From a virus: a stretch of 35,634 bases of DNA. The position numbers were made by a program, and so were the translations under genes. A model generated the notes under the pieces. It saw only the letters and a program-made list of their open reading frames with translations, was not told the DNA's origin and did no database searches. Of this stretch, positions 1,127-22,562 are shown piece after piece. Where the stretch lies: IMG/VR virus record IMGVR_UViG_3300021373_002939, positions 1-35,634 of that record; one strand, given 5' to 3'. Each line of letters begins with the position of its first letter. Position 1 is the stretch's first letter.

Positions 1127-1155
1127 TAATACGTTTTCTATATAATCCATCGACA
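1119..1155 (+). promoter_or_regulatory. Sigma70-like promoter with leaderless geometry
   Basis: TTGAAT (1119-1124) overlaps the 3' end of the oxygenase-like gene, followed by a 16-nt spacer and a perfect TATAAT (1141-1146). The ATG at 1155 is 8 nt further, so the mRNA should start within about 0-3 nt of the start codon. There is no Shine-Dalgarno sequence. Confidence 0.65.
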
Positions 1156-1985
1156 TGAATATACTTTTTATAAGCGATTTTTCTCTCGATCAAAATCAAG
1201 GGGGGTCACAAAGAAGCTCCTCTTTTTTACTGGAAAAAGGAAGAAATCTAGGGCATGAAATAACCGAATATAATTATGACTCCTCTCCAACAAAACTACT
1301 TCGTAGTTACGACTTGGTCATTTCATCTAATTTAGAAGTTATATCAAAAAATCAACCGCATGTAATTGATTTTTTACTAAAACATACAAACCACGCAAGA
1401 GTCGAAAGAGATTCCTGTCTATATTTAGATGACAAAACTAGAGAGGAATTATTTTCGAAAGCTAAAAAAACCTTTTTTTTAACTGAATTTCACCACGCTT
1501 TTTTTATTGATAAATATGGAGACTACTTTAATAATGTAAACATTGTTCCTTCTTATGTTGATTCAGAAGTATATTTTGAAAACTCTAACGATAAAGATAT
1601 AGATATCGTATACTGTGGTTTTGTCCACCCATTAAAGGGTTCTGAAAATTTAGTAAACTGGGCTAGAAAAAACAAAGATAGATCAATAGATGTGTTTGGT
1701 TGGGGTCAAACCTCTGTTTTTAATAATGTTGGGAATATAAAATTCCATGGAAAAATTGCATATAATGAGACAGCTGATATATTTAGGAGGTCTAATTATG
1801 TTTATCATGATCCAATTGTTAACGAACCTTTTTGCAGAATGACTGCGGAAGCTTCTCTCTGTGGTTGTAAATTTGTTGGCAATTCTGAAAGAATAGGAAG
1901 TTTAATAGAAATAAAAAATAAAGGTCTTGACACTTTTAGAGAGGAGTGCAATAATGCGGTAGATAAATTTTGGAGTTTACTATGA
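1155..1985 (+). CDS. Glycosyltransferase, GT4-like (GT-B fold)
   Basis: A 276-residue GT-B-type glycosyltransferase. The N-terminal Rossmann half begins MNILFISDFS and has GGSQRSS where GT4 enzymes have their acceptor-side glycine loop. The donor half begins near residue 150 (DIVYCGFVHPLKGSENLV), and the GT4 signature E-x7-E is present as E224 to E232 in EPFCRMTAEASLCG. It lacks a signal peptide and membrane segments, so it should act in the cytoplasm of the infected cell, moving a sugar from a nucleotide donor to an unknown acceptor. Its TGA overlaps the ATG of the epimerase gene (ATGA), indicating coupled translation. It is shorter than typical 350-400 aa GT4 enzymes but both halves are present. 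Confidence 0.8.
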   Translation: MNILFISDFSLDQNQGGSQRSSSFLLEKGRNLGHEITEYNYDSSPTKLLRSYDLVISSNLEVISKNQPHVIDFLLKHTNHARVERDSCLYLDDKTREELFSKAKKTFFLTEFHHAFFIDKYGDYFNNVNIVPSYVDSEVYFENSNDKDIDIVYCGFVHPLKGSENLVNWARKNKDRSIDVFGWGQTSVFNNVGNIKFHGKIAYNETADIFRRSNYVYHDPIVNEPFCRMTAEASLCGCKFVGNSERIGSLIEIKNKGLDTFREECNNAVDKFWSLL

Positions 1986-2953
1986 TTTTATTGTGTTTTG
2001 GAACCCGTCCTGAATGGCTTAAAATTAAGCCTTTAATAAAAGTATTAGATAACTATCAACTTTTATTTACAGGCCAGCACCCAGATTTACTTAAAGATAT
2101 AAAAGTAGATTATAAGATAACAATCAAAGATAGCACCAACAGACTAGATCAATTAATAAGCGACTGCATTCTCCAATTTCCAAATATTGATTTTGATTCG
2201 GTATTAATACAAGGAGATACTGCGTCAGCCTTTGCTTGTGCAGTAGCCGCCTTTAACAAAAAGAAAAAAATATATTACTTAGAAGCGGGTCTTAGAAGTT
2301 ATGATTTAAACCATCCTTATCCAGAAGAGGGATATAGACAAATGATATCTAGGCTATCTGATATAAACCTATGCCCTACTGAATTGTCTAAAGAAAACTT
2401 AACAAACGAAAGGGTAAAAGGCGAGTGTCATGTAGTTGGAAATACCATATTAGATAACTTGCTACCATATAAAAATAAATGCGAGTATACGAATAAGGTT
2501 TTAGTAACATTACACAGGAGAGAAAATCACCATCAAATAAACGAGTGGTTTTTAAAAATCAATCAATTAGCAAAAACTAATCCTGAATTAGAATTTTTAT
2601 TACCAATTCATCCCAATCCAAATGTACAAAAACACAAAAATATTTTAACACATGTAAGCGTTGTCGAACCCATGTCGCACGAAGACTTATTGGAAATTTT
2701 AGTTAAATCAAGACTCATTATTAGTGACAGCGGCGGTATACAAGAAGAAGCGAGCTTCTTCAACAAAAAAGTTATAGTTTGCAGAAAAACTACAGAGCGC
2801 CCTGAAGCTATAGAAACAGGACATCTTTATCTGTGCAGATCTCCATGTGATTTAGAAAATGAATTTAATTCATTGATAAAAAATTATGAAATAAATTCAA
2901 CTTGCCCTTATGGAGATGGACAATCAAGCTTAAAAATCAAAGAAATAATATGA
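1982..2953 (+). CDS. wecB: UDP-N-acetylglucosamine 2-epimerase (non-hydrolysing type)
   Basis: This enzyme interconverts UDP-GlcNAc and UDP-ManNAc in the cytoplasm. The family signature blocks are in order: FGTRPE (6-11), QGDT (77-80), EAGLRS (101-106), HPYPEEGYRQ (111-120), GNTILD (153-158), TLHRREN (176-182), LLPIHPNPNV and SDSGGIQEE, including the conserved glutamates and the catalytic-region histidine. At 323 residues it is somewhat shorter than the usual 360-380 but all active-site blocks are kept. I chose ATG 1982, which gives MILLCFGTRPE and the ATGA overlap, over an in-frame ATG 12 nt upstream. Together with the downstream dehydrogenase it could feed UDP-ManNAc or UDP-ManNAcA synthesis. 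The gene symbol is by family, not orthology. Confidence 0.9.
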   Translation: MILLCFGTRPEWLKIKPLIKVLDNYQLLFTGQHPDLLKDIKVDYKITIKDSTNRLDQLISDCILQFPNIDFDSVLIQGDTASAFACAVAAFNKKKKIYYLEAGLRSYDLNHPYPEEGYRQMISRLSDINLCPTELSKENLTNERVKGECHVVGNTILDNLLPYKNKCEYTNKVLVTLHRRENHHQINEWFLKINQLAKTNPELEFLLPIHPNPNVQKHKNILTHVSVVEPMSHEDLLEILVKSRLIISDSGGIQEEASFFNKKVIVCRKTTERPEAIETGHLYLCRSPCDLENEFNSLIKNYEINSTCPYGDGQSSLKIKEII

Positions 2954-3066
2954 GCAAATTTAATTCAAAAAACTATTGGGAAAACCGATATCGAACTGGC
3001 GGCTCTTCTGGTGCTGGATCTCACGGTGATGAAGTATTAATGCATCTATATATAAAAAGCAAATGA
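2950..3066 (+). pseudogene. N-terminal remnant of a SAM-dependent methyltransferase
   Basis: A 38-codon ORF: ATG at 2950 overlaps the epimerase stop and its TGA overlaps the ATG of the next gene, so ATGA couplings exist on both sides. The product starts MSKFNSKNYWENRYRTGGSS and continues GAGSHGDE. The pattern YWE.RY..GG.SGAGS.G is the characteristic N-terminus of a family of class I methyltransferases found next to sugar genes in bacteria and phages. After SHGDE the sequence becomes an unrelated short tail and stops, so the Rossmann core is missing. The simplest reading is an internal deletion that removed about 200 codons while leaving the translational relay to the next gene intact. Confidence 0.7.
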
Positions 3067-3776
3067 TTACGGTTATATTAAATTGCTATAAACGCCCTCA
3101 ATATCTTCAAGAGCAAATCGAAGCAATTAAAGCTCAAACTGTTCCCGCAGAAGAAATATGGATTTGGTATAACAAACCCGAAGATCAGGAGCAAGTTGAT
3201 TTAACTGGCTTAGGATGTAAGGTAGTTACTTGTAATCACAATTTTAGATATCATGGTCGATTCGCTTTAGCTCTAATGGCTAAGACTAAGTATGTATGCA
3301 TATTTGATGACGATACAATACCCAATAAAAAATGGTTTGAAAATTGTTTAAATTATGCGGACGGTAAATATATTTTAGGAACCACTGGCGTTTTACTTCA
3401 GGGTGACAAGTATGACCCAAATGAAAAAGTTGGCTGGAATGGATATAACAATAATGAATTACAAGTGGTTGATCTGGTTGGTCATAGTTGGTTTTTGAAA
3501 ACAGAATATCTAAAGTATCTATGGTCAAAACCTCCAATCTCTTTTGAAACTGGCGAGGACATGCAATTATCAGCCAACGCTTATATGGAGGCTGGGATAG
3601 AAACCGCTGTTCCACCGCATCCAGCTTACCATAAAGAATTATGGGGTTCAAATTTTGAAAAGGGTTGGAATTACGGAAACGATAAAAATGCATCTCATTG
3701 GACGGCATCAGCCAACAGAAACCTTGTGGCTTCGGAGTTGCAAAAGATGGGTTACAAAAAAGTAAAAGATAGATAA
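3063..3776 (+). CDS. Glycosyltransferase, GT2/GT-A-like
   Basis: A 237-residue GT-A enzyme. It opens MITVILNCYKRPQYLQEQIE, the nucleotide-sugar-binding beta strand of GT2-type enzymes, has the metal-binding acidic motif FDDDT at 81-85 (YVCIFDDDTIPNKKW) and an ED pair at 165-166 in FETGEDMQLS that matches the usual catalytic-base region. No membrane segments are seen, so it is probably cytoplasmic. The C-terminus (WNYGNDKNASHWTASANRNL) is unlike generic GT2 proteins and may give acceptor specificity. It starts in an ATGA overlap with the methyltransferase remnant and its stop overlaps the next ATG (3776), as elsewhere in this cluster. Donor and acceptor are unknown. Confidence 0.75.
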   Translation: MITVILNCYKRPQYLQEQIEAIKAQTVPAEEIWIWYNKPEDQEQVDLTGLGCKVVTCNHNFRYHGRFALALMAKTKYVCIFDDDTIPNKKWFENCLNYADGKYILGTTGVLLQGDKYDPNEKVGWNGYNNNELQVVDLVGHSWFLKTEYLKYLWSKPPISFETGEDMQLSANAYMEAGIETAVPPHPAYHKELWGSNFEKGWNYGNDKNASHWTASANRNLVASELQKMGYKKVKDR

Positions 3777-4486
3777 TGAAAAAAATAGGAATATTAGGAT
3801 TTGGAGAAATAGGCAAAGCCGTATCATCTCTATATAATCAAAAAGTTAAAATAAAAGACCTAGATACTGACGAAGGTCTTCATGATTTAGATGTAATACA
3901 TATCTGCGTCCCTTTTGATAAAAATTTTATCAATTTAGTGGTTGATTTTCTAAACGAAACAAAGCCCAAGTATTGTGTGATTCATTCCACCATTGCACCT
4001 AAAACAATCGAAGAAATAAACAAGAGAACAAACGATGTATTCAAGGTTTCTCATTGTCCAGTTAGAGGTGTTCACCCAAATTTATTAAAGGGTCTTTTAA
4101 CTTTTGAGACTTTTTGGGGTTGTGATTTTGAAATACCCGAATTAGAAAAACATTTAAAAAATTTAAAATTAAAAATAAACAAAGTAACTTCTGTAACCTC
4201 TGAAATATCCAAGTTATTAGATACTACTTATTATGGATTGTGTATTGCTTGGCATGGAGAAGTAAAGAAGATATGTGATCAATTAAATGTTTCTTTTGAT
4301 GAAGTTTCTACAAGATATAATAATACTTATAATGATGGCTATAAAAAAACAGGCAAAAAAAATGTTATAAGACCTGTTTTATACCCAACAGAAAAAATAG
4401 GAGGCCATTGTGTAATTGAAAATACAGAAATCTTAACTCAATATTTTGAATCTTTAGCTTTTGATCTTATATTAAAATACAAATAA
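3776..4486 (+). CDS. Compact nucleotide-sugar dehydrogenase-like protein
   Basis: A 236-residue NAD-binding protein resembling UDP-glucose/UDP-ManNAc 6-dehydrogenases. It has a Rossmann glycine motif GFGEIG (8-13), a VIHSTIAPKT strand (compare the family's V.STVPPGT), a lysine in SEISKLL (about 146) where the family has its active-site Lys, and IGGHCVIEN with Cys212 matching the catalytic cysteine of the GGxC motif. Family members are about 400-440 aa; the C-terminal UDP-binding domain is absent and the central region is shortened. It may oxidise a nucleotide sugar, perhaps the product of the upstream epimerase, or may be a related reductase. It overlaps the upstream gene by 1 nt and stops 1 nt before the dehydratase ATG. 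Confidence 0.6.
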   Translation: MKKIGILGFGEIGKAVSSLYNQKVKIKDLDTDEGLHDLDVIHICVPFDKNFINLVVDFLNETKPKYCVIHSTIAPKTIEEINKRTNDVFKVSHCPVRGVHPNLLKGLLTFETFWGCDFEIPELEKHLKNLKLKINKVTSVTSEISKLLDTTYYGLCIAWHGEVKKICDQLNVSFDEVSTRYNNTYNDGYKKTGKKNVIRPVLYPTEKIGGHCVIENTEILTQYFESLAFDLILKYK

Positions 4487-4487
4487 A

Positions 4488-5519
4488 ATGAAAAAAGTAA
4501 TTATCACAGGAGTAACAGGACAAGACGGTAGTCACATGGCTGACTATCTACTAGATAACACTGAACACATAATCGTTGCTGGCGTTCGTAGACTGAGTGT
4601 TAAAAACCACGAAAACATCAAACATCTATTAGACAATCCCCGCTTTAAACTCATCGATCTTGATATCACTGATCAGTCGAATGTTAATCGTGTTATCTCA
4701 GAGGAGAAACCAGATTACTTTATCAACTTTGCGGCGAATTCTTTCGTCGGAGTGAGCTGGGACATGCCAGAAAATCACATGAATACAAACTGCATGGCAG
4801 TATTGTATCAACTTGAGGCGATTCGCAAGCACTGTCCAGAGTGCAGATACTACAATGCTGGCTCTTCAGAGGAGTTTGGAGACGTTGTGACCGCTCCACA
4901 GGACGAGACTCACCCACTACGCCCGAGAAGCCCCTACGGAGCTTCTAAGGCGTCTGCAAGGCACTTGGTAAAGGTATGGCGTGAAAGTTATGATTTATAC
5001 GCCATTCAGGGTTGGTTGTTTAATCATGAAGGCACAAGGAGAGGTGAGGAATTCCTTACTCGCAAGGTCACAAAAGCTGTAGCTAGAATTGTTAAGGAAA
5101 TCAGAGACGATAAAGAAGTCAAACCTCTGGAAATTGGCAACCTTGATGCTAAAAGAGATTGGTCTGATGCTGAAGATTTTGTTGTGGGTATTTGGCTAAT
5201 GCTTAATCAAGAAAAACCAAAAGAATATGTATTAGCTTCAGGAGAAACATATACCATTCGTGAGTTTGTAGAGTCTGCATTTGGCTTCGCTGGATTTAAT
5301 CCAGATGAATGCTATTGGGAAGGTGAGGGATCACACTCTAAATATTTTCACCGCGACCAAATGCTCGTTAAAATAAATCCAAAATATTACAGACCAGCTG
5401 AAGTTAATTTACTACTTGGTGATCCAACTCTTGCAGAAAAAGAAATGGTCTGGGTGAGAAAAACAGACTTCTACGGTTTGGTGAAAAAGATGGTTGACAA
5501 TGACATAAGTTTGCTTTAA
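4488..5519 (+). CDS. gmd: GDP-mannose 4,6-dehydratase
   Basis: A 343-residue extended SDR enzyme that converts GDP-mannose to GDP-4-keto-6-deoxymannose, the entry to GDP-fucose, GDP-rhamnose and perosamine sugars. The NAD(P) motif is TGVTGQDGS at the N-terminus, the catalytic triad region is AGSSEEFGD (125-132) with Y150-x3-K154 in SPYGASKAS, and LFNHEGTRRGEEFLTRKVTK matches the dehydratase-specific NHE.PRRGE..VTRKI block. Length is normal. Gmd genes are known in marine phages; the later enzymes for fucose or perosamine are not in this window and would come from the host or elsewhere on the genome. The gene is visibly less AT-rich than its neighbours, which suggests a different origin. Its stop codon lies in the next promoter. 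Confidence 0.92.
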   Translation: MKKVIITGVTGQDGSHMADYLLDNTEHIIVAGVRRLSVKNHENIKHLLDNPRFKLIDLDITDQSNVNRVISEEKPDYFINFAANSFVGVSWDMPENHMNTNCMAVLYQLEAIRKHCPECRYYNAGSSEEFGDVVTAPQDETHPLRPRSPYGASKASARHLVKVWRESYDLYAIQGWLFNHEGTRRGEEFLTRKVTKAVARIVKEIRDDKEVKPLEIGNLDAKRDWSDAEDFVVGIWLMLNQEKPKEYVLASGETYTIREFVESAFGFAGFNPDECYWEGEGSHSKYFHRDQMLVKINPKYYRPAEVNLLLGDPTLAEKEMVWVRKTDFYGLVKKMVDNDISLL

Positions 5520-11291: not shown

Positions 11292-11326
11292 CTTATTATT
11301 ATTGCTGTGGTATCATACAAACATAA
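11288..11326 (+). promoter_or_regulatory. Sigma70-like promoter with leaderless geometry, polymerase genes
   Basis: TTGACT (11288-11293) overlaps the upstream stop codon; a 17-nt spacer leads to TATCAT (11311-11316). The ATG at 11326 follows after 9 nt, so the transcript should begin about 2-4 nt before it. This argues for ATG 11326 as the start, because the upstream in-frame ATG at 11302 lies inside the spacer. Confidence 0.65.
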
Positions 11327-12033
11327 TGAAGCCAATTTTCAAATCAACCTACTCGATAGGTAAGAGCATTCTTACCCTAGAAGAAATAGTTGACATATCT
11401 AAAGAAAACAATCTAAAAGAAGTCATACTGGTCGAAGATAACCTGACCAGTTTCATGAAAGCTTTTCATCTTTGCCAGAAGAACAATATAGATTTGATTT
11501 ATGGTTTAAGAATCACCATGAGCAACGAGAATCTTGACGACGACTCTGATCACAAGGTGGTTATATTTGCACTGGATGATCGCGGCTGTGTTCTTTTAAA
11601 CAAGATATATTCTCTTGCTTTTGTTGAGAATAATGGCAAGCTTAGATATAAAGATTTAAAAAAACTATGGGATGACAAGTCTCTATCTTTTGTGGTTCCG
11701 TTTTATGATAGCTTTATCCACCAGAACAATCTGTATTTGAAGAACTGCATACCAGAACTGAAAGGTTTTGATCCTGTGTTTTGGGTTGAGAAAAACAATC
11801 TTCCTTATGATAGGTTAATAGAGCAAAAAGTTCTTGAGTTCGCCGAGAACAGCTATAAGATTAGCAATGTAAAGACAATTTGCTACAAGAACAGAGAGGA
11901 TGTAGAAGCTCTACAGACATACAAAATCTTGACCAACAGGAGTTTTGGCAGACAAGCGACACTCTCAAACCCCAATTTAAACCACTTTTCCAGCGATGAA
12001 TTTTGTTGGGAATCATATCTAGAAAACGCATGA
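11326..12033 (+). CDS. PHP-domain part of DNA polymerase III alpha (separate gene)
   Basis: A 235-residue protein equal to the N-terminal PHP domain of DnaE. MKPIFKSTYSIGKSILTLEE aligns with the opening of DnaE (H.HS.YSl.dg...ie.l), EVILVEDNLTSFMKAFHLCQ with the ALTDHGN segment, and IDLIYGLRITM with the conserved kPIiG.e. The HxH metal pair is replaced by KST and TDH by VED, so phosphoesterase activity is probably lost. The end (NLNHFSSDEFCWESY) corresponds to the ~S.eEM of DnaE. It likely binds the polymerase core, filling the structural role of the domain. I start it at 11326 because of the promoter. ATGA overlap joins it to the exonuclease. Confidence 0.7.
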   Translation: MKPIFKSTYSIGKSILTLEEIVDISKENNLKEVILVEDNLTSFMKAFHLCQKNNIDLIYGLRITMSNENLDDDSDHKVVIFALDDRGCVLLNKIYSLAFVENNGKLRYKDLKKLWDDKSLSFVVPFYDSFIHQNNLYLKNCIPELKGFDPVFWVEKNNLPYDRLIEQKVLEFAENSYKISNVKTICYKNREDVEALQTYKILTNRSFGRQATLSNPNLNHFSSDEFCWESYLENA

Positions 12034-12662
12034 ACACACAACTATTAAGGTTCAACAGAAAACAAAAGTATATAATCTTCGATACCGAAACCGAAGGTTT
12101 AAACTTGATTAAGTCAAAGCCTTGGCAAGCCGCATGGATTGTCGCTGAAGGCAACAAAGTCATCAAGAAATATGATAAACTAATCAAGTGGGATGATCTA
12201 AAAGTATCAAAGGATGCCGCCAGAATTACTGGTTTCAGCAAAAGCTATTATGAAAAGAACGCTGAAGACCCTAAAAAAGTTTGGGACGAGTTCTCTAAGT
12301 ATCTATATGATGATGACTACCTCATTGTGGGGCAGAATCTTTTGGGCTTTGATGTTTATATGGTTGACGTTTGGCGTAAGCTTATTGGTGAACCTTTGCT
12401 GCAAGACTACATTAACAGAATCATTGACACAAAAGCAATAGCCACAGCCATTGAAAAAGAGGCTCCTGTTGACAAGAAAGACTTCATCTACTGGCAGTAT
12501 AGGTGGTTGAATTACAGACAGCGTGGATTAAAAACTTCACAACTCACATTGTTAAAGAAGTATGACATTGACTTTGATCCGAAAAGATTACATGACGCTC
12601 TTTATGATATAGAAATGAACTTTGAAATATTCCACAAGCAGCTTTACGATATTGAATTATGA
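12030..12662 (+). CDS. DEDDh 3'-5' proofreading exonuclease (DnaQ-like)
   Basis: A 210-residue exonuclease of the epsilon/DnaQ family. ExoI is YIIFDTETEGL with D18 and E20, ExoII is VGQNLLGFDVYMVD with the N-x3-F-D pattern, and ExoIII is HDALYDIEMNFEIF with H-x4-D, so all metal ligands and the catalytic His are present. It should remove mismatched 3' ends for the polymerase encoded directly downstream. ATG 12030 gives the ATGA overlap with the PHP-like gene and starts MNTQLLRF; an ATG 27 nt earlier is less likely. Its stop codon overlaps the ATG of the polymerase. No C-terminal clamp-binding or polymerase-binding tail is obvious. Confidence 0.88.
   Translation: MNTQLLRFNRKQKYIIFDTETEGLNLIKSKPWQAAWIVAEGNKVIKKYDKLIKWDDLKVSKDAARITGFSKSYYEKNAEDPKKVWDEFSKYLYDDDYLIVGQNLLGFDVYMVDVWRKLIGEPLLQDYINRIIDTKAIATAIEKEAPVDKKDFIYWQYRWLNYRQRGLKTSQLTLLKKYDIDFDPKRLHDALYDIEMNFEIFHKQLYDIEL
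12622..12659 (+). promoter_or_regulatory. Possible internal promoter before the polymerase core
   Basis: TTGAAA (12622-12627), a 17-nt spacer and TACGAT (12645-12650) with 8 nt to the ATG at 12659. The geometry equals that of the better promoters here, but the -10 matches only four of six positions and the site is inside the exonuclease gene, so chance is a real alternative. Confidence 0.25.
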
Positions 12663-15202
12663 GATATGAAAACCCATTTCCAGTTGGTGTTAAACTGCCA
12701 GAGATCAGTGTTCCAGAAAGCACCCTGCAATCTCTTGGTCTTAATGCTGATAGCAGCAGCTTAGACATCCTAAAGCAGTTATGCCGCAGAGGACTAAGAG
12801 AGAGAGGAATAACCAAACAAGACAACAGAAAAGATTATTATGATCGTGTCCAGATGGAGATTGATATCCTAGATGATCTAGGTTTTGTTGATTATATTCT
12901 CCTAAACTGGGACATCATGGATTTCTGTAAGAATAATGGCATTCCAACTGGCGCTGGTAGAGGTAGTGCAGCTGGTAGTTTAGTTTTATACCTCTTAAGT
13001 GTAACCAACATAGACCCAATTAAATATGAATTGTTTTTTGAAAGATTTGTCTCTAAGAGTAGAGCAAGGAAAATTGAACATGAGGGAGAGATTTTTCTTG
13101 ACGGTTCTTTGCTTGCTGACATTGATAACGATATTTCTTATGATCGGAGGGTTGAAGTTATTAACTATATTGAGCAAAAGTTTGAGGGCAAAACCTCCAA
13201 AATCCTAACTCTCAATACGCTCAGTTCTAAACTCTGCATGAAAGAGTGTGGGAAGATTGTTGATGAACTTTCAGAAATGGAAGTAAATCAAATCAGCGAT
13301 ACAATCCCCAAACACTTTGGTAAAGTAGCGAAGCTTGATGCGGCTTATGAAGAAAGCGAATCTTTTAAAAAGTTTGCCGATAAATATAAAAAATCATTCA
13401 AGATAGCTCACAAGCTTGAAGGTTTAATTAAAAATACTGGCGTTCATCCGTCTGGCATTTCTATCTCTTATTATAAACAAGAGGACATTATGCCCTTACA
13501 AAAGACAAATGATGGGTCTTTGGTTTCTGGTTATGATATGGATGATGTAGCAAGCTTGAGTGTCAAGTTTGATATTCTGGGTTTGAGGACCCTTTCTGTT
13601 GTTCATGATACCTGTAGGCAGCTTGGTATAGATTCATCTTCAATAGATCCTGCTGATGAAACTATTTATGCTGCCTTGTCTTGCTTACGACAACCGAAAG
13701 GTCTTTTTCAGATTGAAGCTGACACAAACTTTAAAGTATGCAAACAAATTGCGCCACAAAACTTAGAACAGCTTTCTGCTGTTGTCGCTATTGCTCGTCC
13801 TGGGGCTTTAGACTTTAAGGATAGTTATGCTGATTATGTCAGGACTGGAGAGTTCCAGTCTGTTCATGAGTTCTTTGATGATATACTTAGCTATACTGGA
13901 GGTATCCCACTTTATCAAGAGCAGCTTATGAAGATGGCTGTAAAGGTTGGATTTAGTCTTGATGAATCTGAGCAGCTTCGAAGGATTGTTGGTAAAAAGA
14001 AAGTAGATCAAATGCCAGCATGGAAGACAAAGATCGAAGAGAAGATTAAAGAGAATAATTTAGACCCAGCTATAGGTGAGGTTCTTTGGAAGGTAGCAGA
14101 AGACTCTGCCAACTACTCATTCAACAAGTCACATAGTATATCTTATGCTTACTTAGCCGCTATTACTGTTTGGCTTAAGTTTAATCATCCACAAGAGTTC
14201 TTTTTGAGCCTCCTTAAGATGTCTAGGTTTGAGCCTAATGCACATGAGGAAATCGCTAAAATTTCACAAGAGCTTTCATTCTTTGATATTAAATTGCTGC
14301 CACCAGATCTCAACCTTTCTGATTTCGATTTTAAAATCGAGGGTAAGAACATTAGATACGGGCTTAACTCAATCAAAGGTGTGTCTGAAAAAGTTATAGA
14401 GTCTCTTATTGATTTTAGAGAGAGTAAGTTTCATAATAAGTATGATGTTTTTATAGCCGCAAAGGATTGTGGTGTTAACATCGGTACAATGTCAGCCTTT
14501 ATTCAGGCTGGTCTTCTTGATTCTTTTGTTACCTCTGATCGTTGTAGATTAGTTCTAGAAGCTCAGACCTTTAACATCCTTACAGACAGAGAGAAAAGAA
14601 ATGTTATAGAGCTTGGTGAGAAGTTTAATTATGACATCTTGAATACAATTCATTCTTGCAGGAGCGAGAATACTCCAGCTGATGATGGTAGGGTATTGTT
14701 CCCAGACAGAAGGTTTAATACATTCAAGAAGAAGTATGAACCATACAAGAGTATATACGAGCAGAACTCTAGTCATATAAAGTTTGCCAACTGGCATTTT
14801 GAAACCCAGCTTCTTGGTTATAGCTACTCTTATAACATAAGACAGATATTTACTAGTGGAGACGAACCCTCCTTCAATACCTCTGAAGAGATCAGAAACT
14901 CACCAGAGAGAAGGCGTGTTAAGTTTGTCGGAGACATAACAGACATTGTCAAAAGAACAAGCAGAAACGGCAACAAATATGCTAGACTTGAAATGCAGGA
15001 TGAAGTTGGTTCTGTTTGTGGTTTGTTTCTTGATTCTGACAGAGAAGAAAGGTTGACTGACTTCCTAAACTCTGGTAAAAAGTTACCTAAGAAGGGCAAT
15101 ATTGCCATAATCGTTGGCAATGTTGGCGAAGATATAGTATTTGTTGATAAAATAGAGACTATAGAAGAAAAAATTTATATGAAACTATCCGAACTAAAAT
15201 GA
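12659..15202 (+). CDS. dnaE: DNA polymerase III alpha, catalytic core (C family), without PHP
   Basis: An 847-residue C-family polymerase without its N-terminal PHP domain. It starts in the linker before the palm. GAGRGSAAGSL (98-108) is the nucleotide-binding loop, ADIDND (153-158) holds catalytic aspartates D154 and D156, and VKFDILGLRTL (near 303) the third aspartate. GGIPLYQEQLMKMA, LRRIVGKKK and ADSANYSFNKSHS-type fingers motifs (here AEDSANYSFNKSHSISYAY) follow. A helix-hairpin-helix part (IRYGLNSIKGVSEKVI) and a C-terminal OB domain (about 755-835, ending near GNVGEDIVFVDKI) complete the order of DnaE. There is no clear QxxLF clamp motif at the end. ATGA overlaps link it to the exonuclease and to the Clp gene. 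Confidence 0.9.
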   Translation: MRYENPFPVGVKLPEISVPESTLQSLGLNADSSSLDILKQLCRRGLRERGITKQDNRKDYYDRVQMEIDILDDLGFVDYILLNWDIMDFCKNNGIPTGAGRGSAAGSLVLYLLSVTNIDPIKYELFFERFVSKSRARKIEHEGEIFLDGSLLADIDNDISYDRRVEVINYIEQKFEGKTSKILTLNTLSSKLCMKECGKIVDELSEMEVNQISDTIPKHFGKVAKLDAAYEESESFKKFADKYKKSFKIAHKLEGLIKNTGVHPSGISISYYKQEDIMPLQKTNDGSLVSGYDMDDVASLSVKFDILGLRTLSVVHDTCRQLGIDSSSIDPADETIYAALSCLRQPKGLFQIEADTNFKVCKQIAPQNLEQLSAVVAIARPGALDFKDSYADYVRTGEFQSVHEFFDDILSYTGGIPLYQEQLMKMAVKVGFSLDESEQLRRIVGKKKVDQMPAWKTKIEEKIKENNLDPAIGEVLWKVAEDSANYSFNKSHSISYAYLAAITVWLKFNHPQEFFLSLLKMSRFEPNAHEEIAKISQELSFFDIKLLPPDLNLSDFDFKIEGKNIRYGLNSIKGVSEKVIESLIDFRESKFHNKYDVFIAAKDCGVNIGTMSAFIQAGLLDSFVTSDRCRLVLEAQTFNILTDREKRNVIELGEKFNYDILNTIHSCRSENTPADDGRVLFPDRRFNTFKKKYEPYKSIYEQNSSHIKFANWHFETQLLGYSYSYNIRQIFTSGDEPSFNTSEEIRNSPERRRVKFVGDITDIVKRTSRNGNKYARLEMQDEVGSVCGLFLDSDREERLTDFLNSGKKLPKKGNIAIIVGNVGEDIVFVDKIETIEEKIYMKLSELK

Positions 15203-17655
15203 GTGTATATAATGATGTGATATTTAAGGATTTTAATCTTACTCCTAGAGCAAAACAAGCATATAAAGATGCTTATGATATAGCTAAGGAGCTTGACCAC
15301 AAAAACATTAACAATTTGCACGTTTTATATGGGTGCATAAAGAATAGCTCTTCTCATTTAAAGTCCTTTCTTTTGAGTAATGGCGTCCTTATTAAAGATG
15401 AGGATATGATTGACGTTATTTTAAAAGCAAAAGAAGAAAACAACGATAAGTTTTTTGCTAACGATAATTCAGACCTTTGGCACCAAGAAGTTACTGAGGC
15501 GATTAAAGCTGCTAATGATGTATCCAATGACTTGAATCAGTATTATGTGGGTATTGAGCATGTTATTCTTGGGATAATTAATACATCTACTTATGTCTTT
15601 AAGAGTATTGATGATTTTATTATAAATTTTAAATCCTTTAAGAGTAAGTTAAATGATTTTCTTGTAGAGGATATAGAAAATCCTGAGGACCTCGATCATA
15701 GTTTTGAAGATCTTATAGAAAATTTTTCTGATATAGATTTATCTAACGAAGAGGGTCAGAGTATTCTCGCAGAAGAGTCCAATATGCCAGACTTCATTAC
15801 TAATTTAAGTCAATTATATGTAGATGGCAAACTACCCGATATCTACGGAAGAGAGAAAGAAATAAACCTACTAATAGAAACAATATCTAAAAAAAATAAA
15901 TGCAACGCTATACTAACTGGAGAGGCTGGGGTTGGAAAAACCGCAATCGTAGAATTTCTCGCAAGAAAAATCTGTCAAGCAGACGTACCAACAAATCTTT
16001 TAGGAATGGAAATTCTAAGTGTCGATCTAGGTACAATGCTTGCTGGAACCCAATACAGGGGACAGTTTGAGCAAAAATTAAAATCTCTTCTTGATGTAGC
16101 TAAGAGAAACCCCCACATCATTTTATTCTTTGACGAAGTTCATACAATCTTTGGTGCTGGTGGCAATCAAGAAGGCGGAGTTGATGCAGCTAACATGCTA
16201 AAGCCGCTGCTTGCAAGAGGCGAAATTAAATGCATTGGTTCTACGACAAACGCCGAATACGATAAGATATTCAAAAAAGACAGCGCAATGAAAAGAAGGT
16301 TCTTCAACATCGAGGTTGATGAACCATCAAAAGAGGAAACTAAAAAAATTCTCTACAACTGTAAATCAAAATATGAAGAGTTTCATCATGTTAAGTTTTC
16401 AAAACCCATCGTAGATTCTATAGTAGATTTATCTCATTCTTTGATTAGTCACAAAAAATTCCCAGACAAAGCTTTTGATATCATAGATCAAGTCGGCTCA
16501 AGAGTTAAGATAAGAAACCTCAAGCCTTGTGGTAAGATTTTAAAAAGCCACGATGACCTTGTGGATATAATTTCTAAGGGCGGTGATGTTGAGGTTGAAG
16601 ATATAAAAGATAAGTTTAATAAATTTGTCGAGGAGTTAAAGACTGTCAACGATGAATGCATGGCTAATCCAGTGAATATTAAAAAGCAAGATATTCTTGA
16701 GGTTATTTCGGAACACGGCAAAGTATCTATAGAGCAAATTAAAAACAGCAGACAAGGGTTTTCCTCATTTTTACCAAGGATGATGAGTGAGGTTTTTGGT
16801 CAGGATCAGGTGCTTAAGAAGATCAATGATTTGCTTTCTTGCGCTAAGGCTGGCTTAACAGACGAAGACAAGCCTTTAGCTAGTATGTTTTTTGTTGGTC
16901 CTACAAGCGTAGGTAAAACATATACCGCAAAAAAGATAGCCAAGAACTTCTTTGGTAATGAAAAAGCGATGCTCCAGATTAATATGAGTGAACTTTATGA
17001 TAAGACTGGCATGAGTAAGCTTATTGGTGCTAACTCTGGCTACGTTGGTTATGAAGAAGGAGGTTTGCTGACTAAGTTTGTAAGAGACAATCCTAATTGC
17101 GTGGTTCTTTTTGATGAGGTTGAAAAAGCCGATCCCCAGGTTTTGAATTTATTGCTTCACCTTCTTGATGAAGGCTACATAGAAGATAACAGGCACGAGA
17201 AAGTTGACTTTTCTAAGGCTGTAGTTATATTGACCAGCAACATAGGTCACGCCGAAGCTAATAAAAAGAGTATGGGTTTTGTTCAATCAGAATCTGCCAG
17301 ATCAGATTCTTATAATGAATCAGTAAAGAAAAAACTAAAACCAGAATTGCTTGCTAGAATTAATGAAGTAATGGTTTTTGATGACCTTTCGGATTCAGAT
17401 CTAAAGCGGATTATATCCTTTGAATTAAACAAGATTAAAGACAAGCTTATCAAGAAAGGCATTAATATTAAGTTTAATAAGTCCTCTATTGATTGTGTTT
17501 TTGATAGGATTAAGCAGTCAGGCTTACACGCAAGGGATATCAAGAATTATATCAGAGAAAAAATACAAGTTCCTGTCGCCAAAATCGTAGTTAAAAACTC
17601 AAAAACTTCAGAAATTAGCATAAAAAGTGTTGACAATAGAATTAAGGTTTGTTAA
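15199..17655 (+). CDS. ClpA/ClpC-type AAA+ unfoldase, two ATPase rings
   Basis: An 818-residue Clp/Hsp100 protein. The N-domain (1-150) has two ClpN-type repeats (LTPRAKQAYKDAYDIAKELD). NBD1 has Walker A GEAGVGKTA (about 241-249), Walker B ILFFDEVHTIFGAGG and the pore-loop region MLAGTQYRGQFE. NBD2 has GPTSVGKTY (about 566-574), VVLFDEVEKA and the NSGYVGYEEGG pore loop, then SNIGHAE. M692-G-F694 in KKSMGFVQSE occupies the place of the ClpP-docking loop (IGL in ClpA, VGF in ClpC). No ClpB-like long middle coiled coil is evident. It may team with host ClpP or remodel replication complexes. Its ATG overlaps the polymerase stop, so it belongs to the replication operon; no clpP gene is in the window. 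Confidence 0.88.
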   Translation: MSVYNDVIFKDFNLTPRAKQAYKDAYDIAKELDHKNINNLHVLYGCIKNSSSHLKSFLLSNGVLIKDEDMIDVILKAKEENNDKFFANDNSDLWHQEVTEAIKAANDVSNDLNQYYVGIEHVILGIINTSTYVFKSIDDFIINFKSFKSKLNDFLVEDIENPEDLDHSFEDLIENFSDIDLSNEEGQSILAEESNMPDFITNLSQLYVDGKLPDIYGREKEINLLIETISKKNKCNAILTGEAGVGKTAIVEFLARKICQADVPTNLLGMEILSVDLGTMLAGTQYRGQFEQKLKSLLDVAKRNPHIILFFDEVHTIFGAGGNQEGGVDAANMLKPLLARGEIKCIGSTTNAEYDKIFKKDSAMKRRFFNIEVDEPSKEETKKILYNCKSKYEEFHHVKFSKPIVDSIVDLSHSLISHKKFPDKAFDIIDQVGSRVKIRNLKPCGKILKSHDDLVDIISKGGDVEVEDIKDKFNKFVEELKTVNDECMANPVNIKKQDILEVISEHGKVSIEQIKNSRQGFSSFLPRMMSEVFGQDQVLKKINDLLSCAKAGLTDEDKPLASMFFVGPTSVGKTYTAKKIAKNFFGNEKAMLQINMSELYDKTGMSKLIGANSGYVGYEEGGLLTKFVRDNPNCVVLFDEVEKADPQVLNLLLHLLDEGYIEDNRHEKVDFSKAVVILTSNIGHAEANKKSMGFVQSESARSDSYNESVKKKLKPELLARINEVMVFDDLSDSDLKRIISFELNKIKDKLIKKGINIKFNKSSIDCVFDRIKQSGLHARDIKNYIREKIQVPVAKIVVKNSKTSEISIKSVDNRIKVC

Positions 17656-17665
17656 CATTCATGTA
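17630..17665 (+). promoter_or_regulatory. Sigma70-like promoter at the 3' end of the Clp gene
   Basis: A perfect TTGACA (17630-17635), a 17-nt spacer and TAACAT (17653-17658) with 6 nt to ATG 17665. Transcription would start at that ATG. If the real start is ATG 17692 instead, the transcript would have a 27-nt leader made almost entirely of AAAAC repeats. Confidence 0.6.
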
Positions 17666-17889
17666 TGAACAAAACAAAACAAAACAAAATCATGAAGGCA
17701 ATCCGTAATAGCAAAGGTCGTTTCTTCGGTCTTTATACTAAAACTGGAGAGTCTATCAATGCTCAGTTCGTTTCCGAATCGCCGTCATATGTTACGGTTT
17801 TTGATAGGAACAACCGCGTAAACAGGAAGTTTGCCAAGACAAGCCTGTCTGCATTGCGCCTAAAAAACCAAAGAATTGGTAGTGCATAA
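17665..17889 (+). CDS. Small basic SH3-like protein, unknown
   Basis: A 74-residue basic protein. The part from residue 10 on (MKAIRNSKGRFFGLYTKTGE) looks like a small SH3/Sm-like phage family that begins with an RNS.GRFF motif, followed by beta strands ending in KTSLSALRLKNQRIG. Such proteins often bind nucleic acid, but I know no proven function. Two starts are possible: 17665, directly at the predicted transcription start, and 17692, which agrees better with the family N-terminus. The first nine codons are made of the A-rich repeat at 17668-17689. It stands alone between the Clp gene and a terminator-like hairpin, with its own promoter. Confidence 0.6.
   Translation: MNKTKQNKIMKAIRNSKGRFFGLYTKTGESINAQFVSESPSYVTVFDRNNRVNRKFAKTSLSALRLKNQRIGSA
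17668..17689 (+). repeat. AAAAC tandem repeat, A-rich leader or N-terminal codons
   Basis: Period-5 repeat of AAAAC with about four units between two in-frame ATG codons. It contains no G and only single Cs. It may act as an unstructured, A-rich translation enhancer for ATG 17692, or be translated as a basic Asn/Lys/Gln tail from ATG 17665. Confidence 0.6.
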
Positions 17890-17901
17890 ACATTATTGAT
17901 C

Positions 17902-17938
17902 TTGAAATAACAGGCCCTTCCAGTATAATTTTATTAGA
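17902..17938 (+). promoter_or_regulatory. Sigma70-like promoter with leaderless geometry, inside a terminator-like stem
   Basis: TTGAAA (17902-17907), a 16-nt spacer and perfect TATAAT (17924-17929); the ATG at 17938 is 8 nt further. The spacer and the first bases of the -10 form the 5' arm of the hairpin at 17914-17969. Confidence 0.65.
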
Positions 17939-17969
17939 TGAAATGTTCTGATTTATTTACTGGAAGGGC
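17914..17969 (+). terminator. Terminator-like hairpin spanning promoter and start codon
   Basis: GCCCTTCCAGTA (17914-17925) and TACTGGAAGGGC (17958-17969) are perfect 12-bp inverted repeats with a 32-nt loop, directly followed by TTTT. RNA coming from upstream contains both arms and could fold and terminate. RNA started at the promoter in the loop region (near 17936-17938) lacks the 5' arm and could not. The 3' arm is codons 7-11 of the following gene. The long loop lowers certainty that it is an efficient terminator. Confidence 0.5.
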
Positions 17970-19029
17970 TTTTAGCGTTTTTAAGAATAACGTTATTGAA
18001 GAAGGGGAACCATCTTATAACATTATACAACAAATATCTTTAAAAAGCAAAGAGCCTTTTGACATTTCCAAACTGATAGATTTCGATCAAAATGAAAACT
18101 TTGATCATTACGTTGTGGAGTCTGGTGAAAAATCTTATTCTATTAGGGTTTCTCTAGACAAAGACAACCCAAATTTGCTTAATGAAATAGATTTTTATAA
18201 AAACAATAAATTAATTCAAGCTAGTTCTTATGTAGATTCTGGTGTCATCAGAATAGGATCTGACATATTGTTTTTGATTTGCGAGTTTGACGAAGGAGAA
18301 GATATAACAGAGCTCGGTTCTCTTTCTGTTTTAGAGTATAGTACATCTTTATTTTTTACATTAAAAAGATTAAACGAATCAAAAACTGATAAAACATTTT
18401 TGGAGTTTTTAAAGTTAAATTTTGATAGGACAAACCTAGAAGATGAAGATAGTGTTTTTTATAAACTATTAGAAACTAATTATGAATTACAATTTATAAA
18501 GGATGTATTTTCTTTATTACGAGAGGAGATATATGAATCCATAGATTCTAGGATCACGGATTCAAATAAGTGCTGCCATGGTAACTTAAACTTAGCCAGT
18601 ATTACAACTAGAGATGGATTGTACAAAGTTCGTAATTTAGATTTCACTCATCTTGGCAATCCAATTTTTGATATTTGCAATATTATATTGAATTGTGGTT
18701 TCAATAAGGCCTATTCATTAAGTTTTTTTGAAAAATACTGTAAATACAATTCCTTTGATTTCTTAACGGAAAAGGAAAACTTTGACCACATAATGAGAAT
18801 AGCCACTGCCCTTTATTATCATAATTTATTGTTTGATTACCTTTTGGAAACTTCTGTTTTTGAATGCAAAAGACCAGAAAAACTACTAAATATTTCACTT
18901 CAATCTAGCAAGTCGTTTAATTACTTAAAAAAACTAAAGTGTTCTGAATTAGTTTACAAAACAATAGAAAAAATTCTAGTGAGTCCAGTCGTAGACGGAG
19001 ACAATCCCGCTTTTAAAGATTCTAAATAA
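17938..19029 (+). CDS. APH/choline-kinase-fold protein, probable pseudokinase
   Basis: A 363-residue protein whose C-terminal half looks like the aminoglycoside phosphotransferase fold. CCHGNLNLASITTRDG (212-227) aligns with the catalytic loop HGDLHxxNILV, and VRNLDFTHLGNPIFDICNI (D235, D245) aligns with the IDFexaxxGdPxxDLA block. The catalytic aspartate of HGD is asparagine (N216) and the metal-binding asparagine is serine (S221), so phosphotransfer is unlikely in the usual way. The N-terminal half has a strand pattern (SGEKSYSIRVSLDKDN) compatible with the N-lobe. No function is known to me; it could bind a nucleotide or a host factor. The gene has its own promoter and carries a terminator arm in its first codons. 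APH-like phage proteins are rare enough that homology should be confirmed. Confidence 0.55.
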   Translation: MKCSDLFTGRAFSVFKNNVIEEGEPSYNIIQQISLKSKEPFDISKLIDFDQNENFDHYVVESGEKSYSIRVSLDKDNPNLLNEIDFYKNNKLIQASSYVDSGVIRIGSDILFLICEFDEGEDITELGSLSVLEYSTSLFFTLKRLNESKTDKTFLEFLKLNFDRTNLEDEDSVFYKLLETNYELQFIKDVFSLLREEIYESIDSRITDSNKCCHGNLNLASITTRDGLYKVRNLDFTHLGNPIFDICNIILNCGFNKAYSLSFFEKYCKYNSFDFLTEKENFDHIMRIATALYYHNLLFDYLLETSVFECKRPEKLLNISLQSSKSFNYLKKLKCSELVYKTIEKILVSPVVDGDNPAFKDSK

Positions 19030-19063: not shown

Positions 19064-19076
19064 TATACATAAAATA
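19064..19076 (+). promoter_or_regulatory. Possible -10-only promoter with leaderless geometry
   Basis: TATACA (19064-19069) lies 6 nt before the ATG at 19076, the same geometry as the stronger promoters, and is preceded by TAG as at 23349. No -35 box is seen at 16-18 nt. An AAGGAG at about 19048-19053 is too far (22 nt) to be a ribosome binding site and might be an activator box. Weak. Confidence 0.3.
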
Positions 19077-19543
19077 TGATTAACTTTTATAAACCCAACT
19101 CTAAAAACACTGGAAATGCTTTTGGTTTTCGTTTAGGTGTGCAAGGAAAGACCAACGAACCTTGTTTGTATATGACAGCGGTTCAGCAATACTCCTGGGA
19201 TTCGAAGAAAAAAACAGGCTCCTTTTCTGGTAATTCAAAAGACCCAGAGAAATCAGCATCTATTAAGTTTAACGAATCAGAGCTAGGTGGCTTTATTTAT
19301 GCCATAGAAAATTATGAAAAATTTAACGCTTTTCATAGTTTTGACGATAATAAGACCTCTATTTCCCTAGCTCCTTATACAAAAAAAGATGGAACAAAAG
19401 CCTTTTCTTTTTCTGTCATGAGAAATTCTGCTAATAAATTTGGCATTGGATTAGAGATGTCTGAAGCTTATTTGTTGGTTGAGTATTTTAAATTTGTAAT
19501 TAAAGAAATTTTTAATTTCAGAACCGAATCTCTTAAAAAATGA
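19076..19543 (+). CDS. Possible ssDNA-binding protein (Whirly/PC4-like pattern)
   Basis: A 155-residue protein with the order: short basic N-terminus (MINFYKPNSKNTGNAFGFRL), antiparallel strands (PCLYMTAVQQYSWD; ASIKFNESELGGFI), a helix (ESELGGFIYAIENYEKF), further strands (TSISLAPYTKKDG; AFSFSVMRN) and a long C-terminal helix (SEAYLLVEYFKFVIKEIF). This beta-sheet-plus-helix arrangement resembles Whirly/MRP-type ssDNA-binding proteins that occur in phage replication regions. The assignment rests on pattern only; no single diagnostic residue is seen. It follows the pseudokinase gene by 46 nt and overlaps the glycosyltransferase start by 4 nt. Confidence 0.4.
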   Translation: MINFYKPNSKNTGNAFGFRLGVQGKTNEPCLYMTAVQQYSWDSKKKTGSFSGNSKDPEKSASIKFNESELGGFIYAIENYEKFNAFHSFDDNKTSISLAPYTKKDGTKAFSFSVMRNSANKFGIGLEMSEAYLLVEYFKFVIKEIFNFRTESLKK

Positions 19544-21396
19544 GAAAAAAAACAATACTAATACATTCCAATTTCTGCAAAGCTTTTACTGGTTTCGGTA
19601 AAAATAGCAAAAATATTTTAAAATATTTATATAAAACAGGTAAATATAATATTTTCGAAGCTGCCAATATGAGAATGTCTGGCGACAAAGAACTTGATTT
19701 ATTGCCGTGGAAAAGTTACGGGGCTATACCTAAGAATTACCAAGCATTATCAGAAGAAGACAAAAGAAAAGCTGGGTATGGACATTTTGAAATAGACAAC
19801 ATAGTTGAAGAAGTTAGACCAGATTTGTATATTGGTATTGAAGATATATGGGCATTTTCTGATTACCATAGAAAGCCTTGGTGGAATAAAGTTTCTTCCA
19901 TGATTTGGACAACTCTTGACAGCTTGCCCATTCTACCACAAGCAATACAATTTGCGCCTAAAGTAAAAAACTACTATGTGTGGTCCAGTTTTGCAGAAAA
20001 AGCATTCAAAGAAATGGGTTATGAGCATATAAAGACTCTAAGAGGCTCTTTGGATACAGAAGTTTATGAAAGAATGTCTGATGAAGATAGGCTCAATTTA
20101 AGAAAATTTCACGGCATAGATGAAAGAGAATTTGTTATCGGTTTCGTTTTCAGAAATCAACTAAGAAAATCTGTTCCAAACTTACTGGACGGCTTTAAGA
20201 TGTTTAAAGAAAAAAACAGAAAGTCTAAACTATTACTACATACTCATTGGGGAGAAGGTTGGGATATTAATAGGTTGATTGAGGAAAAAGGCATCGACAG
20301 AAGAGATATACTAACTACATATTTCTGCTCATCTTGCAACTCCTATCATGTTAGAAACTTTACTGGAGAAAAACAAAAATGTAGAGAATGTGGAGGAGAC
20401 ACATTAAATACAACCAATGTATCCCAAGGTTGTTCTGAAGAGCAGCTTAATGAAGTATACAATTTAATGGATGTTTATTGTCATCCATTTACTAGCGGTG
20501 GTCAAGAAATACCAGTTCAAGAAGCAAAATTAACAGAACTAATAACCCTTGTCACTAACTATTCTTGTGGTGAGGATAGTTGTTCTGAAGAAAGCGGTGG
20601 ATTACCCCTTGATTGGAGCGAGTATCGTGAGCCAGGTACCCAATTTATTAAAGCGTCTACAGATCCTAAAAGTATAGTAGAAAATCTTCAGAGGGTGTAT
20701 GATATGACGGAAGAAGAAAGGGTAGAGCTTGGTAAAAAATCAAGGCAGTGGGTTATTGATAATTTTTCTATTGAAGTTATAGGTAAACAACTAGAGGATA
20801 TCATTGATTCAGTTCCATATCTTGATGAAGATGTTGATATTAAAAACAGGCATTTAAATGATCTTTATGAAATGCCTGAAAATCTTTCTGATAAAGATTT
20901 CATAATAGATGTATATAAAAATATAATCCAAGAAGATGTCGATCACAACTCTGATGGATTCAAAAAGTGGTATGCAGATTTAACTTCCAACAAAATATCT
21001 CAAAAAGATTTGTATCATCATTTTATAGAAGTAGCTAGAAAAGAAAATTTAAAAAAACCAATAGCTTTTGAAGAGATGCTTTCAAAAGAAGACAAGGGCA
21101 AAAGAGTTGCTGTTATAATTCCTCAGTCTGGCACTGATCTTTTATTCGTTAATTCATTGATGAAGAATTTACAGACAAAACACAAAAACCATAATATATA
21201 TATATTCACAAAGCCAGAGTTTTTCGAATACATAGAGGATAATCCTCATGTCTACAAATGCTTACCCTATTCAGAGTCTTTAGACAACCCAATTTCTATG
21301 GAGGGTTTTGGTGATCACGAAGGTTTTTTTGAAGCCGCGTATTATCCAGCTACGACCACGCAAAAAATCCCTTGTTACATTCATAACGGTAAATAA
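19540..21396 (+). CDS. GT4 glycosyltransferase with zinc-ribbon insert and N-half of a GT9 domain
   Basis: A 618-residue fusion. Residues 1 to about 430 are a GT4 enzyme: N-terminal glycine loop FTGFGKNSKN, LLHTHWGEGWD in the donor domain, HPFTSGGQEIPVQEAKLTE in the donor-binding glutamate region and a closing helix (VIDNFSIEVIGKQL). A four-cysteine zinc-ribbon-like insert (CSSC at about 264, CREC about 285) sits in the donor domain. After a linker, residues about 525-618 (RVAVIIPQSGTDLLFVNSLM; NIYIFTKPEFFEYIEDNPHV) match the first half of a GT9/heptosyltransferase, and the gene stops just at the end of that half (CYIHNGK). The next gene supplies the rest. Probably cytoplasmic; donor and acceptor unknown. 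Confidence 0.75.
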   Translation: MRKKTILIHSNFCKAFTGFGKNSKNILKYLYKTGKYNIFEAANMRMSGDKELDLLPWKSYGAIPKNYQALSEEDKRKAGYGHFEIDNIVEEVRPDLYIGIEDIWAFSDYHRKPWWNKVSSMIWTTLDSLPILPQAIQFAPKVKNYYVWSSFAEKAFKEMGYEHIKTLRGSLDTEVYERMSDEDRLNLRKFHGIDEREFVIGFVFRNQLRKSVPNLLDGFKMFKEKNRKSKLLLHTHWGEGWDINRLIEEKGIDRRDILTTYFCSSCNSYHVRNFTGEKQKCRECGGDTLNTTNVSQGCSEEQLNEVYNLMDVYCHPFTSGGQEIPVQEAKLTELITLVTNYSCGEDSCSEESGGLPLDWSEYREPGTQFIKASTDPKSIVENLQRVYDMTEEERVELGKKSRQWVIDNFSIEVIGKQLEDIIDSVPYLDEDVDIKNRHLNDLYEMPENLSDKDFIIDVYKNIIQEDVDHNSDGFKKWYADLTSNKISQKDLYHHFIEVARKENLKKPIAFEEMLSKEDKGKRVAVIIPQSGTDLLFVNSLMKNLQTKHKNHNIYIFTKPEFFEYIEDNPHVYKCLPYSESLDNPISMEGFGDHEGFFEAAYYPATTTQKIPCYIHNGK

Positions 21397-21398
21397 TC

Positions 21399-22562
21399 AT
21401 GTCTCATATAATTAAAGAATATTCTAAAAACCTGGAGGTAAAGCCTTCTAACCCAGTAGTAAATAAGCACTATTACCCAATAATTCCTCAAAATTATATA
21501 GTAATATATAACGAACAGTCTATAGATTCTAAACGCTATAATTATTACTCTTTGGTTATTGATTTAATCAAAACAAAATTAGAAGAATTAGGCATCAAGA
21601 TCGTATTGATCGGTTCTGGTAAAGATATGACCAACCGTGCTGATTTTGTATACCCAAATCTAAACTTCAAAAAGAATGCTTATATAGTATCAAAATCAAA
21701 ACTTGTTATTTCTGTGGACAATGCTTACACACAATATGCTAGTTCTGAAAACATTCCAGTTATTACTTTATATGGTAATGTTTATCCTTCTGTGACAACT
21801 CCTTATTGGTCGAACAAAAACAATAAAGTGGATCTGTCTCCTGATTGGGATAAAAAACCTTCTTTATCTTTAATAGACGAGAAAGATTCCATTAATAAGA
21901 TTTCAGCAGAGAAAGTGGCAGAATCTGTTTTCAAGCTTCTCAATCCAAAATCAAAATTCAAACTAAATTTTAAGACAAAACTAACCAATAAGAATAAAGA
22001 TTTTTCTGTTGATGTTATACCTACGTCTTATGTAGAGCTTCCTTTTCTTAATGATAGCGTTATCGACCTTAGGTTAGATAGAGGTAAGGTGAACGAAGAG
22101 GCTTTTTACTCTTATCTTGATAATCATAAGTGCAATATTGTAATAAAAAACAACGTTTTACAGCCAGATGTAATTTCAAATTTTACACACAATATAGATT
22201 GCATAAAATTATTTTTAAGTGAAGACATAGGTGATATACCTAAAGAGTATTTTTCTTTCTTTAAGAAAAGAAACATTGACTTCAAAATATATGTCACAAA
22301 TAAACAAATTCTTGACGACATTCGTTTTAAATATTTTGAGCAGAGAGTAGAATATTTTGACCCTCCAAAAGAAAAACCAGATTGCGTTAGCTTTACTGAT
22401 AAGTTTTTCTCTTTTAAATTAGTTGTTGATGGTGGCGATGTTTATAAATCTACTTATCATTGGAAAAATAATATTGACAAAGAAGATAAAGTAGTGGATA
22501 ATTCTAATTACTGGGAAGAATTAGATTATTTTTATATTTATGAACAAGACAGAGACAGCTAA
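21399..22562 (+). CDS. GT9-like glycosyltransferase, C-terminal half plus extra domain
   Basis: A 387-residue protein starting 2 nt after the stop of the preceding gene. MSHIIKEYSKNLEV continues the helix expected after the GT9 N-half. YIVIYNEQSIDSKRYNYYSL, IKIVLIGSGKDMTNRADFV and KLVISVDNAYTQYASS match the donor half of GT9 (usual isnDTG..HlA, then IPVITLYGNVYPS for Pv..lfG.t.P). The Asp is kept but the TG and His are not, so activity is uncertain. The last 190 residues (from about VDVIPTSYVELPFLN) are a separate domain I do not recognise. It probably associates with the upstream GT9 half. The following gene overlaps it by 23 nt. Confidence 0.6.
   Translation: MSHIIKEYSKNLEVKPSNPVVNKHYYPIIPQNYIVIYNEQSIDSKRYNYYSLVIDLIKTKLEELGIKIVLIGSGKDMTNRADFVYPNLNFKKNAYIVSKSKLVISVDNAYTQYASSENIPVITLYGNVYPSVTTPYWSNKNNKVDLSPDWDKKPSLSLIDEKDSINKISAEKVAESVFKLLNPKSKFKLNFKTKLTNKNKDFSVDVIPTSYVELPFLNDSVIDLRLDRGKVNEEAFYSYLDNHKCNIVIKNNVLQPDVISNFTHNIDCIKLFLSEDIGDIPKEYFSFFKKRNIDFKIYVTNKQILDDIRFKYFEQRVEYFDPPKEKPDCVSFTDKFFSFKLVVDGGDVYKSTYHWKNNIDKEDKVVDNSNYWEELDYFYIYEQDRDS

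Follow-up and report, generated by a model that had tools for sequence, protein, structure and literature searches.

A two-ring Clp unfoldase gene next to the DNA polymerase gene in a group of uncultured phages, with a retained tripeptide predicted to dock on host ClpP

The stretch of DNA analysed here (the window) is an IMG/VR virus record of 35,634 bases, probably a fragment. Its replication cluster encodes a DnaE-type polymerase which, judging from Pfam and PHROG matches, is divided among three ORFs (PHP, exonuclease, and core), and the core gene is directly followed by a clp gene (Table 1). The preliminary description had these two genes coupled by an ATGA overlap, which is correct for the window, where clp starts at 15199 and dnaE ends at 15202. 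A small ORF similar to the one 3' of clp is present at this place in many relatives, including phages that encode the D1-only and decayed-D2 forms of Clp described below. Close to clp, an ORF of approximately the size of the 363-aa ORF is present in about half of the two-ring relatives and in most of the D1-only relatives checked. An ORF resembling the one at 19076-19543 is found directly 3' of dnaE in an outgroup that has no clp at this position. Sugar-related genes (glycosyltransferases, a nucleotide-sugar epimerase) lie on both sides of the replication cluster (1155-5519 and 19540-22562).

Table 1. Features of the replication cluster and of the Clp protein in the window
Feature	Position	Strand	Basis or remark
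PHP/N-terminal part of split DnaE-type polymerase, separate ORF	11302..12033	+	PHROG 405 positions 50-188, E=7e-13
3'-5' proofreading exonuclease-like ORF, same replication cluster	12003..12662	+	Pfam RNase_T E=1.6e-14
DnaE polymerase core (NTPase, finger, HHH domains)	12659..15202	+	Pfam DNA_pol3_alpha E=1e-60, finger E=2.5e-29, HHH_6 E=2e-17
Two-ring ClpA/ClpC-type AAA+ unfoldase, 818 aa, ATG start, ATGA overlap with dnaE core stop	15199..17655	+	
D1 Walker A GEAGVGKT, residues 241-248	15919..15942	+	alignment
D1 Walker B ILFFDE, residues 308-313	16120..16137	+	alignment
D2 Walker A GPTSVGKT, residues 567-574	16897..16920	+	alignment
D2 pore loop 1 GYVG, residues 614-617	17038..17049	+	G614, Y615, G617 kept in 68/68 two-ring relatives
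D2 Walker B VVLFDE, residues 635-640	17101..17118	+	alignment
ClpP-docking tripeptide M692-G693-F694 (predicted)	17272..17280	+	alignment with E. coli ClpA IGL; loop in model
Small basic 74-aa ORF after clp	17665..17889	+	no confident family match
363-aa ORF with phosphotransferase-like HGNL...LDF segment (by-eye reading)	17938..19029	+	no Pfam/PHROG match
155-aa ORF, motif KPNxKxTG	19076..19543	+	no family match

The clp product had been described as a full-length two-ring Clp ATPase with both Walker sites and the pore loops kept, and both statements are borne out. PHROG 4871 ('ATP-dependent protease') matches the protein over residues 13-816 (E=8e-194), and the Pfam domains AAA, AAA_lid_9, AAA_2, and ClpB_D2-small score above their cut-offs. 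Besides the Walker motifs, the alignment shows the pore-loop tyrosines Y286 and Y615, the D1 arginine fingers, R720 of D2, and the sensor-2 residue R779 to be intact. With two AAA+ modules, each harboring Walker A and B, the protein belongs to class I of the Hsp100/Clp proteins. A chance ORF or a frameshift product is ruled out by the full-length family match and an alignment of 50 sequences. From the latter, an AlphaFold2 model was computed (mean pLDDT 82.5), whose N domain is helical; full-length ClpC can be aligned with this model. Clp_N reaches 18.8 bits in the window protein, just under the Pfam cut-off of 20.7, and 30.8 bits, above it, in the D1-only protein of lineage L151.

The solved relatives closest in sequence are ClpC (best PDB match, 1e-129), ClpB, and ClpA, and the folds that match the model best are those of ClpC and ClpA in complex with ClpP, followed closely by ClpB and Hsp104. 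The window Clp resembles ClpC (S. aureus, B. subtilis, M. tuberculosis) in its best sequence and best fold match, but unlike ClpC it is encoded by a phage gene. With E. coli ClpA, which works with ClpP, it shares D1, D2, the pore loops, a probable N domain, and a docking loop that falls at the equivalent place in the alignment. It differs from E. coli ClpA in its location beside a phage dnaE, in having MGF instead of IGL, and in its score of 568 bits against TIGR02639 ClpA, below the equivalog cut-off of 993 bits. A further difference from ClpA is that no gene for the adaptor ClpS was found in 25 records related to the window.

M692-G693-F694 had been proposed to occupy the site of the ClpP-binding tripeptide. 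This placement is supported by the alignment, in which the three residues fall on I617-G618-L619 of E. coli ClpA, at a position where ClpB has a gap. ClpB/Hsp104 proteins are marked by the absence of a docking tripeptide, which the window Clp possesses; as far as alignment and model can tell, MGF represents a tripeptide of the [ILV]G[FL] type, carried on an exposed loop by the ring that faces ClpP. In the AlphaFold2 model it lies in a flexible coil (689-700, block pLDDT about 61) between the helices 684-688 and 701-712, i.e. inside the predicted docking loop, and the loop motif is kept in every homologue read. Neither of the two findings named in the preliminary description as grounds for refutation, a loop that varies among close homologues or one that lies away from the docking site, was therefore made. 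IGL/F distinguishes ClpA from ClpB, and a loop of this type grafted onto ClpB results in ClpP binding (PMC5540906). Loops of the IGF type are known to insert into pockets of ClpP (PMC9035409).

Jumbo phages with ClpA, ClpX, ClpS, or ClpP have already been listed (PMC7824862; PMC12619734). Like the window Clp, the jumbo-phage ClpAs of RaK2, XaC1, and Munch and other PHROG 4871 proteins are phage-borne two-ring Clps, annotated as ATP-dependent protease or ClpA-like. The three are about 32-37% identical to it, and their genes are surrounded by virion genes instead of lying next to dnaE. Among the jumbo-phage ClpAs examined, the docking site reads IGV in RaK2 and MNM in Munch, where the motif is lost, and VGF was also seen; the cases of Munch and RaK2 show that retention of the motif in phage Clp is not automatic.

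Relatives of the window were collected from viral contigs, which were scanned with alignments of Clp and of DnaE, taking the best loci (80 or fewer) of each scan. This yielded a sample, rather than a census, of at least 132 related DnaE lineages (<97% identical). Among the matches listed, clp is the next ORF after dnaE in 123 of 132 lineages. In lineage L365, a 159-aa ORF separates dnaE from a clp that carries KMGF, and eight of the listed lineages form an outgroup without clp after dnaE. The distance between the two genes ranges from -17 to +23 nt across the lineages and is -4 in the nearest kin of the window. The ATGA coupling thus does not extend to a family rule, being present in only some of the lineages; the conserved feature of the family is the adjacency of dnaE and clp, not the 4-base overlap. 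Clp genes had furthermore been called unusual in phage replication operons, which agrees with the three jumbo phages, where clp lies among structural genes, but not with this phage group, where the arrangement is the rule. No named isolate with a dnaE-clp pair was found in INPHARED, in which dnaE matches stay below 60% identity (best listed about 26-33%). Likewise, no report of a dnaE-linked clp family was found in the literature searched, its absence from the literature at large being not proven. A provirus or cellular origin received no support: genome_contigs contained no Clp relative, and dnaE relatives were limited to four bin contigs, the labels of which contradict each other.

Nearly all bacteria possess ClpP, which makes the host the natural source of this peptidase. 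In accordance with the preliminary description, no ClpP is encoded on the window record, a 35.6-kb fragment, and none (PF00574) was detected on 57 clp-bearing records in total, i.e. the window and 56 others of up to 205 kb, mostly fragments, on which a ClpP or another peptidase may lie unseen. The only PF00574 match (E=1e-27) came from L392, located on the record of L383 and belonging to the outgroup without dnaE-linked clp; this ClpP-family protein is perhaps a head-maturation protease.

The dnaE-adjacent Clp proteins occur in three architectures. None of the 123 lineages listed has lost the docking tripeptide (68 two-ring, 37 decayed-D2, and 18 D1-only), counts that are not independent as the lineages share ancestry, which a comparison of changes per column offsets in part. 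In the two-ring class, every checked D2 motor residue is intact and the tripeptide reads [MILV]GF in 68/68 lineages (M 40, I 10, V 9, L 9), with G and F invariant. The decayed-D2 class is defined by the absence of the pore-loop motif, which is hence missing in 37/37 lineages. Its Walker B glutamate is replaced by aspartate in all 37, and the arginine-finger and sensor-2 arginines are gone in nearly all of them, while [MLV]GF is found in every one (M 28, L 8, V 1). Together with L365, these lineages form a single group with 100% support in a FastTree tree that contains several long branches. Across the 280 columns of the decayed D2 (47 distinct proteins), a mean of 9.2 parsimony changes per column was counted. 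Only six columns show no change, two of which are the G and F of the tripeptide, and the other columns of the decayed docking loop mostly show 4-21 changes. In the model of one such protein (L066), D2 still has an AAA+ fold, MGF (656-658) lies in a low-confidence stretch, and the best match is ClpC.

The 18 D1-only lineages (26 distinct proteins of 458-502 aa) form one clade with 100% support, nested among two-ring lineages. Their proteins end after the D1-D2 linker, and all C-termini, in 18/18 lineages, consist of IGF, IGF followed by H, I, or L, or IGFGV (IGF plus 0-2 residues). Mapped on the dnaE tree, IGF shows no change in the 19 with full dnaE, compared with 4-10 changes at each of the 16 preceding positions. 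A D2 hidden in another frame or gene was rejected, with no second Clp match at the loci and no AAA_2 above cut-off on the contigs. Walker A and B, the pore loop, and the arginine fingers of D1 are intact in both classes without a functional D2. From these sequences, docking seems to have moved to the C-terminal tail of a single-ring motor. Docking by a C-terminal tail is known for HslU and PAN. The D1-only relatives resemble ClpX, HslU, and PAN/Rpt as single rings with a short, predicted peptidase-docking motif, but they differ from these in that a ClpA-type D1 module forms the ring and a ClpP-type IGF, not HbYX, forms the tail. No D1-only Clp with a terminal docking tripeptide was found in the literature searched, which does not prove its absence from the literature at large. 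In ClpA, D2 acts as principal motor and D1 as auxiliary motor and recognition ring (PMC9663308), so that weaker unfolding would be expected of the decayed and D1-only forms; they look like machines pared down to recognition, modest pulling, and docking.

The window gene probably encodes a phage ClpA/ClpC-type hexameric unfoldase that uses its MGF loops to dock on host ClpP and supplies this peptidase with proteins. The basis for this reading is the intact D1 and D2 motor sites, the position of the loop, the near-universal dnaE-clp adjacency, the lack of ClpP on the phage records, and the invariant tripeptide. The earlier suggestion that the phage may borrow host ClpP has gained weight, since the tripeptide outlives both decay and loss of D2 and ClpP was detected on none of the 57 records. 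On balance, the D1-only protein would be a minimal single-ring ClpA-D1 unfoldase acting with its C-terminal IGF on host ClpP, the D2 of the other lineage would persist as a non-translocating loop holder, and ClpP borrowing would be the selected function.

Less convincing is a ClpP-independent remodeller, i.e. a disassembly chaperone for phage replication complexes, in which MGF is merely inherited from bacterial ClpA/ClpC. Such activities are known for ClpX on Mu transposase and for ClpA on RepA, and both the location of clp beside the polymerase gene in the replication cluster and the D1 ATPase sites kept in every class would suit this role. Inheritance alone, however, leaves unexplained why 37 decayed-D2 lineages should have lost the pore loop, arginine finger, and sensor but kept the tripeptide, and why it is present at the new C-terminus of the D1-only clade, and the Clp of Munch has lost it; the remodeller is thus considered unlikely. 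It is quite improbable that the phage rings serve as a decoy that fills the hydrophobic pockets of ClpP, excludes host ClpX/ClpA/ClpC, and protects phage proteins with little unfolding of its own: within the decaying D2 the tripeptide is indeed what is kept best, but a passive plug needs none of the D1 Walker A/B, pore loop, and arginine fingers that stay intact where D2 function is lost.

The terminal IGF of the D1-only clade might also be a by-product of its DNA (ATAGGATTT) acting as ribosome-binding site of the next small gene. AGGA lies 8-12 nt ahead of the next ATG in several D1-only loci, so that some tails double as a possible ribosome-binding site, and the Ile and Phe codons, less informative than Gly, are near-fixed (ATA in 25/26, TTT in 26/26 proteins). 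This least probable of the alternatives is weakened by codon variation and gene spacing, as the glycine uses all four codons (GGA 16, GGT 8, GGC 1, GGG 1), forms without AGGA among them, which argues for selection on the protein, as IGF is retained at loci whose next gene begins 16-21 nt beyond the stop or at which no small gene was detected within 120 nt (L257, L258, L260, L272), and as in the two-ring sisters this tripeptide occupies a loop distant from any gene start.

If host ClpP is indeed the partner, the phage Clp would be made together with the phage DNA polymerase, and its putative hexamers would bind host ClpP physically by MGF/IGF and feed substrates into it, presumably for degradation. 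The phage would in this way lend the host protease a new substrate-selecting motor, probably at the time of genome replication. Candidate substrates are host replication or defence proteins or parts of the phage replisome; the remodelling of replisome parts raised in the preliminary description may thus apply to the choice of substrate.

ClpA was known before in jumbo phages, with partner and purpose unproven. The lineages compared here amount to a natural deletion experiment, in which one lineage has a decaying D2 and another none at all while the ClpP-docking tripeptide stays. This persistence suggests that capturing the Clp protease of the host is a core function, linked to replication, in a widespread group of uncultured phages. 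The natural single-ring ClpA variant with its C-terminal docking tail offers a test of how much of a Clp motor ClpP requires to be driven, and it could become a compact tool for targeted degradation.

Some dnaE loci of the relatives deviate from the usual organization. In L196, dnaE is followed by a 317-aa endonuclease-like ORF, apparently inserted ahead of clp. The dnaE core of L394 (8001-10985) is distributed over two ORFs, the second of which opens with an intein C-terminal-like stretch (NFYAEGLVTSNSH), which suggests that this phage DnaE contains a naturally split intein. The dnaE cores of L298 (5995-9783) and L346 (6688-9030) are several hundred bases longer than usual, the extra length possibly representing inteins or other insertions.
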